Part shown: positions 19,194-31,175 of the stretch, piece by piece
Numbering within the stretch: the stretch's first letter is position 1
How the letters are laid out: each line of letters opens with the position of its first letter
Source: Candidatus Levybacteria bacterium RIFCSPHIGHO2_01_FULL_36_15
Lineage (GTDB): Bacteria > Patescibacteriota > Microgenomatia > Levybacterales > GWA1-39-11
Assembly: GCA_001782015.1 (NCBI GenBank)
Contig: MFNJ01000039.1
Coordinates: 1-50,164 of the forward strand
Length of the DNA stretch: 50,164 nucleotides
Direction: 5' to 3'
The notes under the pieces: model-generated
Seen by the model: only the letters and a program-made list of their open reading frames with translations
What the model was told of the DNA's origin: nothing
Database searches by the model: none
Position numbers and translations under genes: made by a program

Positions 19194-19442
19194 CTAAGGC
19201 TTCATTACTAATCTTTTATTTGTAAAAGCTTTTCCTGAACCTGATTTTAAATACTTTTCAAACTTTTTTGCCAATTTTTCCGTTTCAAAAGAAGCATAAA
19301 ATATTAACTTCCAAGGAATATAAGGTTTAGTTGCAAATGATTCTCTGTTATTATGTTCTTTAAATCGTTTTTTTAAATCATTTGTCCAACCTGTGTATAA
19401 TTCTCCATTTTTTAGGCTTCTTAAAATATATGTATAAAACAT
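19194..19442 (-). CDS. GIY-YIG nuclease family protein
   Basis: MFYTYILRSLKNGELYTGWTNDLKKRFKEHNNRESFATKPYIPWKLIFYASFETEKLAKKFEKYLKSGSGKAF. Confidence 0.93.
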   Translation of the reverse strand: MFYTYILRSLKNGELYTGWTNDLKKRFKEHNNRESFATKPYIPWKLIFYASFETEKLAKKFEKYLKSGSGKAFTNKRLVMKP

Positions 19443-26100: not shown

Positions 26101-26230
26101 AAATTGGCTCCCTGTTCCTAGTATCACACTGACCGATGCTTTATCACAAGTTATCCAGGCTTTTCAAAACCCTGTATGGGCTGAACAGGCAAGACAAAGA
26201 TTAAAACTGATTAAAATAATCAGGCAATAA
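26101..26230 (+). repeat. Array element copy M
   Basis: Plus frame NWLPVPSITLTDALSQVIQAFQNPVWAEQARQRLKLIKIIRQ*, uninterrupted; overlaps the stop of the 26220 gene by 11 bp. Confidence 0.88.
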
Positions 26231-27098
26231 CTTTCCAATCTTCAACCATGTGTTTCACATCTTCGTCTTGCTGGGTATTTGAAGCAGAATGAATTTTAAA
26301 TGTGTTATCTGCAATAGAAATGGTTATGTTAAATTGTCTTTTTTGTTCATCAAATTGGATAATTTCTTTTTGAATATATTGATGAATATTTTGATACGGT
26401 ACAATTAGAACCTTCTTTTCTTTTTCCGTCTGAAGGACAAACATATAGTACATATTACCTCTTTGGTTATTAATAAATGAGCTTTTGGTAATAGGTACTG
26501 TTCTGGTATTTGTATTTTTAAATGAAACATTTTTGACTTGGAAATAGAATGTTTTATCGTTTTTTGTCGCTATTACATCTACTCCTGTATCAACCAACGC
26601 TAGGTTTGCATTGTAATCTTGGTAAAGTAATTCTGAAATTATATACATTTCTCCTGCTTTCCCTATATAGTTGAAATGGTCACCCATGTTATCTGAGTCT
26701 CCTGGTTTTTGTGTTCTTTTTGATTGAGTGGGTGGAGTCCCTCCTAAAGCAATAGCTCGTGCTTCAGGGAAACTTCCAAATCTAGTTTCATAAATTTTAT
26801 CTGAGAACTTACCTTCTCGTCTTAAATCTATTATTACTGGAGGTCTTCCAAGTTTCTTTTGAAGGTCCCGGATATGTTGAAGTAAATCCTCCTCAGTTGT
26901 GGACATTGCCTCTCCAAGACGACTTGGCTTAAGTCCTGCTGCTATGAGTGCTGGTTTAATTTTTCCACCAAAATTCAATATTACTTGGTAAATAAATCCA
27001 GCCTTTCTAATATCTTCCTGCTTTAAGGTGTCTGTTCCCAACTTCTTTGCTAATTCTTTAAGTTTGTCTATTACTTCCGGTTTAGTTAAATTGGCCAT
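26220..27098 (-). CDS. Endonuclease-like protein: N-terminal homing-endonuclease-associated repeats plus C-terminal PDDEXK-like domain
   Basis: Two N-terminal repeats (..LGTDTLKQEDIRKAG..FGG..ALIAAGL; ..LGRPPVIIDLRREGKFSDKIYETRFGSFPEARAIAL) and GKAGEMYIISELLYQDYN...DTGVDVIATKNDKTFYFQVKNV. Confidence 0.7.
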   Translation of the reverse strand: MANLTKPEVIDKLKELAKKLGTDTLKQEDIRKAGFIYQVILNFGGKIKPALIAAGLKPSRLGEAMSTTEEDLLQHIRDLQKKLGRPPVIIDLRREGKFSDKIYETRFGSFPEARAIALGGTPPTQSKRTQKPGDSDNMGDHFNYIGKAGEMYIISELLYQDYNANLALVDTGVDVIATKNDKTFYFQVKNVSFKNTNTRTVPITKSSFINNQRGNMYYMFVLQTEKEKKVLIVPYQNIHQYIQKEIIQFDEQKRQFNITISIADNTFKIHSASNTQQDEDVKHMVEDWKVIA

Positions 27099-27141
27099 AA
27101 TAATATAGGTAAATTAATTGGGTCGATTAAGAACTTTTTGC

Positions 27142-27212
27142 TCCGGCGATAGGACTCGAACCTATAACCTTGTCGTTAACAGCGACCTGCTCTACCATTG
27201 AGCTACACCGGA
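27142..27212 (-). tRNA. tRNA-Asn (GTT)
   Basis: Minus: TCCGGTGTAGCTCAATGGTAGAGCAGGTCGCTGTTAACGACAAGGTTATAGGTTCGAGTCCTATCGCCGGA; full cloverleaf, loop CTGTTAA. Confidence 0.95.
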
Positions 27213-27213
27213 A
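27198..27213. repeat. Direct repeat (tRNA-Asn 5' end), inner copy
   Basis: TTGAGCTACACCGGAA, identical to 27525..27540. Confidence 0.95.
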
Positions 27214-27469
27214 TGTTTACTTTATTAACTCTTTCTTTAATATAGCTTCTTCCAAAGCCAGTCTTTAATGATTTTTCTCTTTTTATTGCACTTTCTTTTG
27301 ATAAACAAGCTTCGTAATATATCAACTTTAAAGGTGCTCTATTTTTTGTTGCTTCAACTTCTCCATTATTATGTTTTTTAAATCTTTCCCTTAAGTCTTT
27401 TGTCCATCCTATATATAATTCTTTGTCCTTTAAACTTTGTAATACATATGTATAATAAAACTTTGGCAT
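27203..27469 (-). CDS. GIY-YIG nuclease family protein; stop lies inside the tRNA-Asn 5' end
   Basis: MPKFYYTYVLQSLKDKELYIGWTKDLRERFKKHNNGEVEATKNRAPLKLIYYEACLSKESAIKREKSLKTGFGRSYIKERV. Confidence 0.93.
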   Translation of the reverse strand: MPKFYYTYVLQSLKDKELYIGWTKDLRERFKKHNNGEVEATKNRAPLKLIYYEACLSKESAIKREKSLKTGFGRSYIKERVNKVNIPV

Positions 27470-27483
27470 TAAGTAATTTTACC

Positions 27484-27524
27484 ACCCGCCTGCAAAAGCT
27501 GATGCTTTAGCATCTGCGGGCAGG
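27484..27524. repeat. Hairpin-forming sequence CCCGCCTGCAAAAGCTGATGCTTTAGCATCTGCGGGCAGG
   Basis: Nested complementarity: GATGCT/AGCATC, CCCGC/GCGGG, CCTGC/GCAGG. Confidence 0.7.
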
Positions 27525-27540
27525 TTGAGCTACACCGGAA
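27525..27540. repeat. Direct repeat (tRNA-Asn 5' end), outer copy
   Basis: TTGAGCTACACCGGAA. Confidence 0.95.
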
Positions 27541-27654
27541 CGTAAAATTTCACTTTGTAAATTAACGTTCCAGTCACGTATTGGTACTGGGATGGAATAT
27601 TAATTTGCGCTAATTATTTTATCATCTAAGATTGCTGAAATCCACACCAATTTT

Positions 27655-28830
27655 TTATTCGTCTCTGAGATACTCTCTAAGTTCGGGAGCCTCCGAGGAA
27701 TGGCGGAGTTTGAGCAATACATTATTTTCAATTTGCGCAACTCTTTGACGCGTTATTCCAAACTTTTTACCAACTTGCTCAAAGGATTTTGCTTCTCCAT
27801 CATCAAATCCAAATCTTGCTATTATTATTTTCCGCTGTCCAGGTTTGAGTGACGCAAGCAATGCCGCGATTTTTCCCCTTCTTTCCGTATTTATTACTGT
27901 CTCAAGCGGAGAAACAGCATTGGGGTCTGGTTGCAGACTTCCTAAATTATCATTGCTGTCCTCCTCGTCTGTTTCAAGAGATTGATCCAGTCTAACCGGT
28001 TCCTGGTAAAGAATTCTTTTTAGCTTCCCAATTTTTTCAGGCGGAAGTTCTGTTGTTTTTGAAAGCTCCTCAAGGGTTGCTTCTCTTCCCAGAAATATTA
28101 CCAACGCCTCTTCATTTCTCATAATCTTGCTGACATCTTTCAGTTTGTTTTTGGGTACTTTTATTGCCCTTGCTTGGGTGGCAAGCGCGTCACTAATAGC
28201 CTGCCTTATCCACCACATAGCATAGGTTGAAAACTTAAAACCTCTTGCGGGATCAAATCCATCTGCTGCTTTCATTAATCCCTGATTACCCTCTGCTATG
28301 AGGTCAGCAAAAGGAAGCCCTTTTCCTGTGTTTTGTTTGGCAACTGAAACAACCAGTCTAAGATTGGATTCTATTAATCTTCTCCTTGCTTTATCTGCTT
28401 CCCGTATCTTCCTATCACATTCTGCCAACTCTTTTGTTTTTTGATCTGGCGGCAGATTAGAGCTTGCGATCTGTTCTTTTAAATTACCCGCTCTATTTCC
28501 TTTTTCTTTTTGTGCTCCAAGAATTTGCTCATCTCCTCTGGTCAATAGAGGAAATCTTCTTATCTCCCTTAAGTATATTCCTACAGAATCTCCTAAGGCT
28601 TCATTTGAAGCGGGTGTGTTAGCTGGTTTTTCTGCGGACGCTTTTACCAAAGAATATTCTTTTTGAATTGCTTGAGCAGTTGCGGCTATAGGTTGATCTA
28701 AATCAGCAATTTCACAAGAGGAGACGATTCCATTTGAGGGCATGAACTCAGGAGCTTTTCTGCCATTATTTTTATTAATTTTACCTGGATTGCTTTGATG
28801 ATAAGATGCTTCTGCTTCAACAATTCTCAT
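27655..28830 (-). CDS. RNA polymerase sigma-70 family factor (RpoD/SigA-like paralog 1)
   Basis: [35 protein letters not shown]-terminal KSFEQVGKKFGITRQRVAQIENNVLLKLRH. Confidence 0.95.
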   Translation of the reverse strand: MRIVEAEASYHQSNPGKINKNNGRKAPEFMPSNGIVSSCEIADLDQPIAATAQAIQKEYSLVKASAEKPANTPASNEALGDSVGIYLREIRRFPLLTRGDEQILGAQKEKGNRAGNLKEQIASSNLPPDQKTKELAECDRKIREADKARRRLIESNLRLVVSVAKQNTGKGLPFADLIAEGNQGLMKAADGFDPARGFKFSTYAMWWIRQAISDALATQARAIKVPKNKLKDVSKIMRNEEALVIFLGREATLEELSKTTELPPEKIGKLKRILYQEPVRLDQSLETDEEDSNDNLGSLQPDPNAVSPLETVINTERRGKIAALLASLKPGQRKIIIARFGFDDGEAKSFEQVGKKFGITRQRVAQIENNVLLKLRHSSEAPELREYLRDE

Positions 28831-28906
28831 TAAAGATATTATTCTAGTTTAAAAATGAAGTTTTTGCAATCAAAACCAAGCTGATCTGGTCAAACCAATA
28901 ATAAAC

Positions 28907-29899
28907 TTAAAGTAAGTTGCTTAGTTTTCTACATACTTCAGGCTTATTGAGCTTACGTATAGACGCTCGCTCGATTTGTCTGACTCTTTCTTTGCTTATG
29001 CCTTTTTTTCTTCCAACTTCCTCAAGTGGTAGTGTCTCTCCGCTGCTTAAGCCGTATCTTAAATCCAGGATTTCTTGATAGCGCTCAGGAAGAATCCTTA
29101 AAGCCTCCTGGACATTCTCACTTAATAACTTTTCTAAGGTTTCTTCTTCCGGATCAGCGGCTTCTTTGTCTTCAATAAAATCTCCTGCTTCACCGTCTTT
29201 ATCTTCTCCAACAGGTATATTGAGGCTCGATGGTTCTTGTGTATCCATTCTCATTAACATTTCAACTTCTTCGGTTTCAATTCCCATTTCTTTTGCCAAT
29301 TCTGCGTTTGATATTAGTCTGCCTTCTGCCTCCATTCTTGTTCTTTTTACTTTATTTATTCCATTTAATATGTTTCTTGGAAGCCTTATACTTCTTGCCT
29401 CATGTGTAATTGCTCTATTTATGCCTTGTATTATCCACCACATTGCATACGTTGAAAATTTCACTTCTCTTCTCCAGTCAAATCTGTCTGCTGCCTTTAC
29501 CACTCCTTCGTTTCCTGCTTGGATAAGATCAAGGATGTCCAGTCCCCTTCCTTGGTGCTTTTGCGCGGCCCAAACTACCAGTCTTAAATTTCTTTCAACC
29601 AGTTCTTCTCTTGCGCTTTTATCTCCTGCTTCAAGCCGTTTTGCAAGCTCAATCTCTTCATGCCCTGTTAAGAGTGGGCGTCGTCCTATTTCTGCTAGAT
29701 AAATTTTTAAATTATCATGAATGTCTGGTCCAAAGCTGTCAAAATCTATATCTTGCCTCCACTCTTTTTCTACAGGCTTAATCTCCTTTTCTTCAAATGC
29801 AAGAAGAGCTTGGTTATCAGGTTCTTCCGGTTCAACCTCTGTCCTAGTGCTAAAAGTTTCAGACCCCCATAATAGCGTTAACAGGTTTACTATGTCCAT
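28907..29899 (-). CDS. RNA polymerase sigma-70 family factor (paralog 2)
   Basis: EVKFSTYAMWWIIQGINRAITHEARSIRLPRNIL; LPLEEVGRKKGISKERVRQIERASIRKLN. Confidence 0.95.
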   Translation of the reverse strand: MDIVNLLTLLWGSETFSTRTEVEPEEPDNQALLAFEEKEIKPVEKEWRQDIDFDSFGPDIHDNLKIYLAEIGRRPLLTGHEEIELAKRLEAGDKSAREELVERNLRLVVWAAQKHQGRGLDILDLIQAGNEGVVKAADRFDWRREVKFSTYAMWWIIQGINRAITHEARSIRLPRNILNGINKVKRTRMEAEGRLISNAELAKEMGIETEEVEMLMRMDTQEPSSLNIPVGEDKDGEAGDFIEDKEAADPEEETLEKLLSENVQEALRILPERYQEILDLRYGLSSGETLPLEEVGRKKGISKERVRQIERASIRKLNKPEVCRKLSNLL

Positions 29900-30083
29900 T
29901 AGCGCATTCAGGCATTAACCGGATTACCGGTTTTTTTCTTCTGAAGTTTTTTTCAGGCAAATCAATTATTATGGCTTTTTCAGCTCTTGGCATACTACAG
30001 GATGGTATTTTAATACAAAATGCTTGTTGTTGTAAGCATATTGTAAAACTTCCTGAAGATTGAATTTTTAAAATGGAGATCTT

Positions 30084-31175
30084 TTATTCCAGATAATCCT
30101 TAAGTTTATTGCCGCGTGAAGGATGTCTGAGTTTTCTTAAGGCTTTGGCTTCAATCTGTCTTATTCTCTCGCGTGTTACGTTAAACATTTTACCCACTTC
30201 TTCAAGAGTTTTGGGCTTGCCGTCTCTTAAGCCGAACCTTTCTTCAAGCACCCTTCTTTCCCTATCTGAAAGCGTTGAAAGGACGCTTCCCAGCTGTTCT
30301 TTTAGGAGTCCCCGTGAGGCAGTATCAAAAAGTGTGGGAGCTGTAATATCATAAATAAAATCACCCAGGTAGCTGTCTTCCTCATCTCCAACCGGCGCGT
30401 CAAGGCTTGCCGGCTGCTGGGAGATTTTTATAATTTCCCGTGCCTTTTCAGGCTCAATTTCAATTATTTCCGCAATCTCCTCGGGAGTGGGTTGGCGGCC
30501 AAGCTCCTGCATGAGTTTTCTTTGAGCCCGCATGAATCTATTGATATTCTCAACCATATGAACGGGAATTCTTATGGTACGTGCTTGGTCTGCTATTGCG
30601 CGGGTTATAGCCTGCCTTATCCACCATGTAGCATAGGTTGAAAATTTAAACCCTTTTTTCCAGTCATATTTTTCAACAGCTCTTATTAATCCCTGGTTTC
30701 CTTCCTGAATCAGGTCCAAAAGTCCCATTCCACGGCCTACATATTTTTTGGCAATTGAAACCACAAGTCTTAAGTTGGATTCAACCAGTTTTGTTTTTGC
30801 GCTTTGGTCTCCTTTTTCCAGTCTTTTTGCAAGTTCCACTTCTTCGCTGAAGGTCAAAAGCGGTATTCTTCCTATTTCTTTCAGGTACATTCTTACGGGA
30901 TCAGTAACTGTTCCGCCCTGTATGATATTGAGCGCCTCAAGTTCCTTTTCAAGGTCCTCAATCGATTTTTGGAATTCCTTTTCTTCTTCAAGAGTATCAA
31001 AGATGTCGATTGATTTTTTAATGAGTTGGTCATAAAGGTAATCAAGCTCTTTAATATTTTCCTCAGGTTTGGGAAAAGCATTTAAAATCTCATCCTGAGA
31101 CACATACCCTCTCTTTTTTGCCATGGCAAGAAGGCTTACTATCTTTTCGTTGTGTACGGCTTTTACATTTGTCAT
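30084..31175 (-). CDS. rpoD: Primary RNA polymerase sigma factor RpoD/SigA
   Basis: [77 protein letters not shown]; adjacent to dnaG. Confidence 0.97.

Follow-up and report, generated by a model that had tools for sequence, protein, structure and literature searches.

Why should a nuclease gene stand directly 5′ of an intact tRNA-Asn(GTT) gene, overlap it, and have upstream, on its far side, a second copy of the tRNA 5′ end? The locus lies within the window, by which we mean the whole 50,164-nucleotide stretch of DNA analysed; genomes are referred to by G numbers, with G000 the window genome, and loci by L numbers. On the minus strand the order of parts is TTCCGGTGTAGCTCAA, a hairpin, TGGTA, a short spacer, the nuclease gene and the complete tRNA-Asn (Table 1). 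A first-pass annotation made from the DNA letters had described a GIY-YIG gene ending within the tRNA 5′ end, and this is borne out by the match to PF01541 and by the stop codon, a TAG that coincides with nucleotides 8–10 of the complete tRNA. The exact 16-bp repeat that it had pointed out is also present, the two copies being identical over all 16 bp; we estimate that about 3e-4 such pairs would be expected by chance per 1.6-kb region. The tRNA-Asn is where it had been placed, but is two bases longer, reaching 27140 rather than 27142. Similarly, the hairpin exists with its limit at 27485 rather than 27484, but it is not merely a sequence beyond the gene. The 5′ tRNA copy resumes with TGGTA right after the hairpin, so that the hairpin sits within the D-loop of an incomplete copy of the tRNA 5′ part. 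The GIY-YIG gene is the sole ORF of at least 60 aa between the repeats, and we found no integrase gene in the insert of about 330 bp. The window genome, about 92% complete, has one tRNA-Asn match in all.

Table 1. Features of the tRNA-Asn locus and its flanks, with positions in the window.
Feature	Position	Strand	Basis or remark
HNH_repeat (PF18780) gene, 3′ of tRNA-Asn	26220..27098	-	Outside the element
Complete tRNA-Asn(GTT)	27140..27212	-	ARAGORN; Infernal 67.5 bits at 27141-27212
16-bp direct repeat, copy within the complete tRNA	27198..27213	-	TTCCGGTGTAGCTCAA
GIY-YIG nuclease gene, single domain, 88 aa	27203..27469	-	PF01541, E 3.6e-16
TGGTA, tRNA nt 16-20, 5′ fragment resuming past the hairpin	27480..27484	-	Sequence and two-block alignment
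GC-rich hairpin, 40 nt, in D-loop of 5′ tRNA fragment	27485..27524		CCTGCCCGC...GCAGGCGGG
16-bp direct repeat, upstream copy	27525..27540	-	tRNA-Asn 5′ fragment: tRNA nt 1-15 plus one base
Flank from sigma-factor gene to tRNA fragment, 114 bp	27541..27654	-	Place and length match the G004 empty-site flank
Sigma-factor gene, 391 aa	27655..28830	-	Synteny marker outside the element

The sigma-factor gene next to the element is the first of three tandem RpoD-type genes (391, 330 and 363 aa; 27655–31175), and it is the 363-aa protein that is conserved beside tRNA-Asn in relatives. On the other side, the HNH_repeat protein shares 94% identity with a protein of G044, a member of another family of the same order, which suggests from the sequences that this gene was recently transferred.

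The tRNA-Asn locus in related genomes

The first-pass annotation had recommended a search for empty sites in sister genomes, and this search found them. In G004 (same family), G010, G035 and G040, the main sigma-factor gene (rpoD) is followed by a single same-strand tRNA-Asn with no GIY-YIG gene, and the gap between the two in G004 is about 110 bp, compared with the 114 bp that precede the fragment in the window. Among the relatives compared, no empty site carries both copies of the repeat and the locus is not occupied in every genome. The flank in the window genome aligns poorly to those of the four genomes, so the empty-site argument at the window locus is one of synteny. In genus g15, by comparison, the flank and fragment of G016 align contiguously with the tRNA 5′ ends of G048 and G017, which lack the insert, and at the level of sequence we take this alignment as direct evidence of insertion. 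Besides its fragment, nuclease gene and complete tRNA-Asn, the G016 locus has one more tRNA-Asn copy downstream, nearly complete, whose D-loop holds the same hairpin (L059, ~1380–1460). In G043 the rpoD–tRNA-Asn locus holds a different GIY-YIG gene, and the 5′ fragment there ends at the anticodon.

Rfam matched the tRNA alone at the window locus, and a group I intron at this site was therefore rejected, although the same models picked up group I introns at two other loci, where they split tRNA-Asn(GTT) at the anticodon (L117, 187–406, in G036; L118, 1063–1312, in G048). The intron insert in G036 appears to contain an HNH-like ORF.

The unit of hairpin, nuclease gene and tRNA 5′ end interrupts the conserved rpoD–tRNA-Asn arrangement, with the fragment upstream and a well-scoring complete tRNA downstream. 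The syntenic empty sites, the G016 alignment and the recurrence of the unit at many tRNAs, described below, all support the insertion proposed at the outset; as a reading of sequence comparisons, insertion at the tRNA with a duplicated or regenerated 5′ end is well supported. What settled in the 5′ portion of this essential tRNA gene was probably a minimal GIY-YIG nuclease unit of the free-standing kind.

Nuclease genes at other tRNA genes

With the window protein as query, we found 17 GIY-YIG genes in the 1.37-Mb window genome, nine of which have a tRNA on the same strand no more than 150 bp away (p ~4e-14 under random placement against 47 tRNAs in 1.37 Mb). A GIY-YIG gene stands directly 5′ of seven of the 30 tRNAs examined in this genome, and directly 3′ of two. 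The tRNA-adjacent loci are at Asn (L001), Gly (L003), Leu (L006), Pro (L010), Trp (L011), Gln (L012) and Lys (L015), and those on the 3′ side, L008 and L009, both follow Ser tRNA. The window itself has a second GIY-YIG gene (19209–19442), 50% identical to the one studied here and with no tRNA nearby.

The relatives' set comprised 60 genomes, the window's own and 59 of the same order. GIY-YIG matches occur in 56 of the 60, with a patchy distribution of 0–17 copies per genome. At 71 of the 117 loci a tRNA lies within 150 bp, a proportion biased as a rate because the loci were collected by similarity to tRNA-adjacent queries; 70 of these tRNAs are on the same strand as the nuclease gene and one on the opposite strand, and the other 46 genes have no tRNA within this distance. 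In the relatives and in other Patescibacteria/CPR genomes we found a unit that recurs at many tRNA types, in which a piece of the tRNA 5′ end, often bearing a hairpin in its D-loop, is followed by the nuclease gene and a complete tRNA. The mirror arrangement, with the nuclease gene 3′ of the tRNA, also exists. A scan of species genomes yielded 80 named loci. Loci with a close downstream tRNA come from Beckwith-, Collier-, Magasanik-, Kuenen-, Nomura- and Roizmanbacteria, Microgenomates, other Patescibacteria and one unnamed bacterium, and the single tRNA-adjacent record with a non-CPR name bears a Zixibacteria label (L248). No tRNA was found near the homologs labelled Bacteroidota, Desulfobacterota and Planctomycetota, so a tRNA habit across the wider GIY-YIG family is unsupported, and Rfam gave no matches on 20 loci mainly from groups of this type. 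Viral contigs provided one homolog (L269), 5′ of tRNA-Lys, which does not suggest phages as the chief carriers.

Upstream of the nuclease gene, loci of the 5′ class often have an additional piece of tRNA 5′ sequence. To see which tRNA type this upstream region matches best, we masked the complete tRNAs and set the adjacent tRNA against as many as six tRNAs from every other type. The type of the adjacent tRNA ranked first at 20 of 55 5′-class loci, against 2.75 expected (p ~9e-13; L020/L193 and L022/L261 are apparently the same contigs, making the effective number 53 rather than 55). In the 3′ class, a clear 3′ remnant was seen at only 5 of 34 loci (L023, L095, L129, L130 and L132). Fragments extend to the anticodon at L006, L011, L066, L087, L127 and L180, and the ORF stop falls exactly on tRNA U8-A9-G10 at about one fifth of the 55 5′-class loci. 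At L087, L089 and L097 a further tRNA fragment lies between the nuclease gene and the complete tRNA; such stacked fragments at one tRNA suggest repeated insertions. A quickly built tree of 196 proteins (about 80 columns, fine branching uncertain) largely separates tRNA-adjacent from non-adjacent proteins, with 29 changes against at least 54 when shuffled, and its nuclease lineages follow tRNA type and side, with 58 changes against at least 67 in 300 shuffles.

Inserts within the fragments are themselves recurrent. Two-block alignment placed an insert inside the tRNA fragment at 29 loci, and by reading these we recognised D-arm-loop hairpins in about 22 distinct fragments from about 12 tRNA types, with several unrelated hairpin sequences among them. 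We rejected the possibility that the hairpin is a dispersed repeat in the window genome, where its pattern matched once, although palindromes resembling it are scattered through genomes of relatives.

The origin of the two tRNA 5′ halves is not uniform. In the Trp case the complete tRNA resembles the relatives' tRNA and the fragment does not, such that the fragment looks foreign. The Leu case is the reverse: the fragment scores 0.89 against one relative's tRNA-Leu and the complete tRNA 0.69. Hence Leu fits a pattern of foreign replacement and Trp is the opposite; the Asn copies of the window are identical. The Trp case rules out a foreign new half and a native fragment as a general rule, and because the two cases are opposite, a simple replacement of the native half by a foreign half does not fit all loci. 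This may reflect a fragment that moves together with the unit, or variable conversion tracts.

Candidate mechanism and rival readings

The AlphaFold2 model of the window protein has a confident GIY-YIG fold (pLDDT 92), and in its domain, its catalytic residues and the absence of any further domain the protein is a single-domain, UPF0213-like member of the GIY-YIG superfamily. Its nearest solved relatives are UPF0213 (structure 1zg2; profile E 1.5e-14, Foldseek E 4e-4 with a modest TM of 0.53) and Slx1, and the I-TevI catalytic domain is more distant. The catalytic Tyr, Tyr, Arg and Glu (Y8, Y19, R29 and E65) are kept in 87–88 of 89 tRNA-adjacent proteins, and six of the 89 have an internal stop. 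The window protein is a catalytic domain alone with no extra DNA-binding domain.

The predicted nuclease likely drives insertion by cutting tRNA genes, as in the free-standing homing of phage SegB. It would cut uninterrupted tRNA genes in the D-arm or anticodon-loop region, and repair templated by a copy of the occupied locus, in which the tRNA sequences serve as homology arms, would then install the nuclease gene together with the rebuilt tRNA, amounting to intronless homing. The captured tRNA promoter would drive co-transcription of the nuclease gene. As for the D-loop hairpin, its most likely role is either to inactivate or mark the additional 5′ copy or to control the mRNA of the nuclease, or its translation; blocking of cleavage and service as a nuclease substrate are further candidate roles. 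Points against this mechanism include the bare catalytic domain, which does not explain recognition of one tRNA type, and the 5′ sequence of the rebuilt tRNA, which is unchanged and leaves self-immunity unexplained. We put forward only tentatively the more ambitious proposal that Patescibacteria harbour "cut and rescue" drives, that is, a diversified family of single-domain GIY-YIG nucleases in which every lineage targets a single essential tRNA gene. Such drives would cut uninterrupted copies and thereby spread, bringing along a rebuilt tRNA end, and the D-loop hairpin in the discarded 5′ copy would block re-cutting.

A different possibility, which deserves attention although we find it doubtful, is that a structure-dependent nuclease for single-stranded or branched DNA (UPF0213/Slx1-like) acts on tRNA genes or hairpins while they are single-stranded, as they would be in DNA uptake or replication, and that the unit spreads by transformation and not by double-strand-break homing. 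The closest solved relatives, UPF0213 and the branched-DNA enzyme Slx1, favour this reading, as does the unusual structure of the regions upstream of tRNA-adjacent genes, whose mean folding z-scores are -2.25 in the 5′ class and -3.50 in the 3′ class compared with -0.77 in the others (from plain and not dinucleotide-preserving shuffles, a measure that replaced an uninformative count of perfect stems). Single-domain GIY-YIG "Ssn" enzymes of Neisseria reportedly cut single-stranded palindromic repeats. Palindromes of the form CCYGCYYGC...GCRGGCRGG (L168–L188) are dispersed in 22 of the 60 genomes, with 0–11 in each, and across 59 genomes their number correlates with that of GIY-YIG genes (Spearman 0.47, p 1.4e-4). 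However, most palindromes in the relatives are found at a distance from both tRNAs and GIY-YIG genes, and the unrelated sequences among the fragment hairpins also speak against this reading.

The nuclease could also be cargo without a role. tRNA genes would then be general hot spots of insertion or recombination, and the duplicated 5′ end would be either an attachment repeat of the integrase type or what is left of a tandem tRNA copy after decay. Integration at tRNA genes is indeed common, and the palindromes insert elsewhere too, but an insert of this size lacking an integrase gene, the strict co-orientation (70:1), the tracking of tRNA type by nuclease lineage, the frequent ending of the ORF on the tRNA itself and the retained catalytic site together make this unlikely. 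Co-orientation, overlap with tRNAs and the conserved active site would also agree with a host function tied to tRNA expression (processing, or an RNase or toxin regulated by tRNA supply) and kept for co-regulation. This we consider highly improbable in view of the patchy occurrence at 0–17 copies per genome, the empty sites in relatives, the stacked fragments suggestive of repeated insertions and the upstream tRNA fragments of matching type.

Relation to known elements

By analogy, the nearest functional precedent for homing by such a unit is SegB of phages T4 and T6, a free-standing GIY-YIG homing endonuclease that is encoded beside tRNAs and cuts within tRNA genes (PMC13096335). Nuclease genes of T4 often borrow upstream promoters, and RNA hairpins lie upstream of segB and mobE (PMC2988022). 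Like SegB, for which a regulatory RNA hairpin upstream of the gene has been described, the window unit encodes a GIY-YIG protein among tRNA genes; we found it outside any intron or intein, present or absent at a conserved locus, and of a nuclease lineage tied to its insertion site. Unlike SegB, it is located on a bacterial chromosome directly at a tRNA 5′ end and encodes a putative nuclease of a single domain. A matching 5′ tRNA fragment, a rebuilt tRNA, and the many tRNA types tracked by nuclease lineages further set these units apart from SegB.

Mobile ORFs of fungal mitochondria, found in Allomyces atp6 and in Glomus atp6, atp9, cox2 and nad3, come with duplicated gene ends (PMC3630166). 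They pair an endonuclease gene, which is GIY-YIG in the atp9 example, with a replacement gene end, and the displaced native end remains; the window locus likewise has a duplicated host-gene end beside the nuclease gene. The fungal elements occupy the 3′ ends of mitochondrial protein genes, whereas the CPR units occupy mostly the 5′ ends of bacterial tRNA genes, and a foreign origin of the replacement is inconsistent in the latter. Group I introns also reside in tRNA genes, at the anticodon and often with an endonuclease, including tRNA-Asn of relatives (L117, L118), but they are spliced RNAs within one tRNA copy, whereas the GIY-YIG units have no intron match and leave both a fragment and a complete tRNA. 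Integrase-type elements share the restored tRNA and the direct repeat of a tRNA end that brackets the insert, and differ from the present unit, which lacks an integrase, is mostly found at the 5′ end and consists of one 88-aa nuclease gene. Our search of the open-access literature, in which subscription papers are mostly not covered, turned up no report of GIY-YIG units located at tRNA genes in bacteria. By comparison with these systems, the units are best filed as a combination of a known free-standing homing endonuclease with gene-end replacement, here in a little-described form.

If this assignment is correct, the numerous small "GIY-YIG family" proteins of ultra-small bacteria would be selfish genes at tRNA genes, and would provide a cause for tRNA gene replacement and for the repeated duplication of tRNA ends. 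They would be a bacterial parallel to the gene-end-replacing elements of fungi and an example of a natural nuclease that carries the repair of its own breakage, and might include small enzymes with tRNA-gene-sized specificity. For annotators, tRNA fragments and tRNA-overlapping ORFs in these genomes would then be real structure.

Insertion sequences in the rRNA genes of CPR bacteria are mostly LAGLIDADG-encoding and intron-like; their GIY-YIG cases are sparse and were judged not to fit spread by homing, and the main text of that study does not mention tRNA (PMC11270868). These inserts and the tRNA units have in common the same clade and homing-endonuclease domains, GIY-YIG included, in essential RNA genes. 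Two further loci concern RNA genes other than tRNAs. At L226 (3001–3765) a GIY-YIG gene immediately precedes a tmRNA gene on its 5′ side, a hairpin marking where the two meet, and at L004 in the window genome (1501–1740; G000:C2:12616-12855) a GIY-YIG ORF with one in-frame stop is apparently located within the 3′ part of 16S rRNA.
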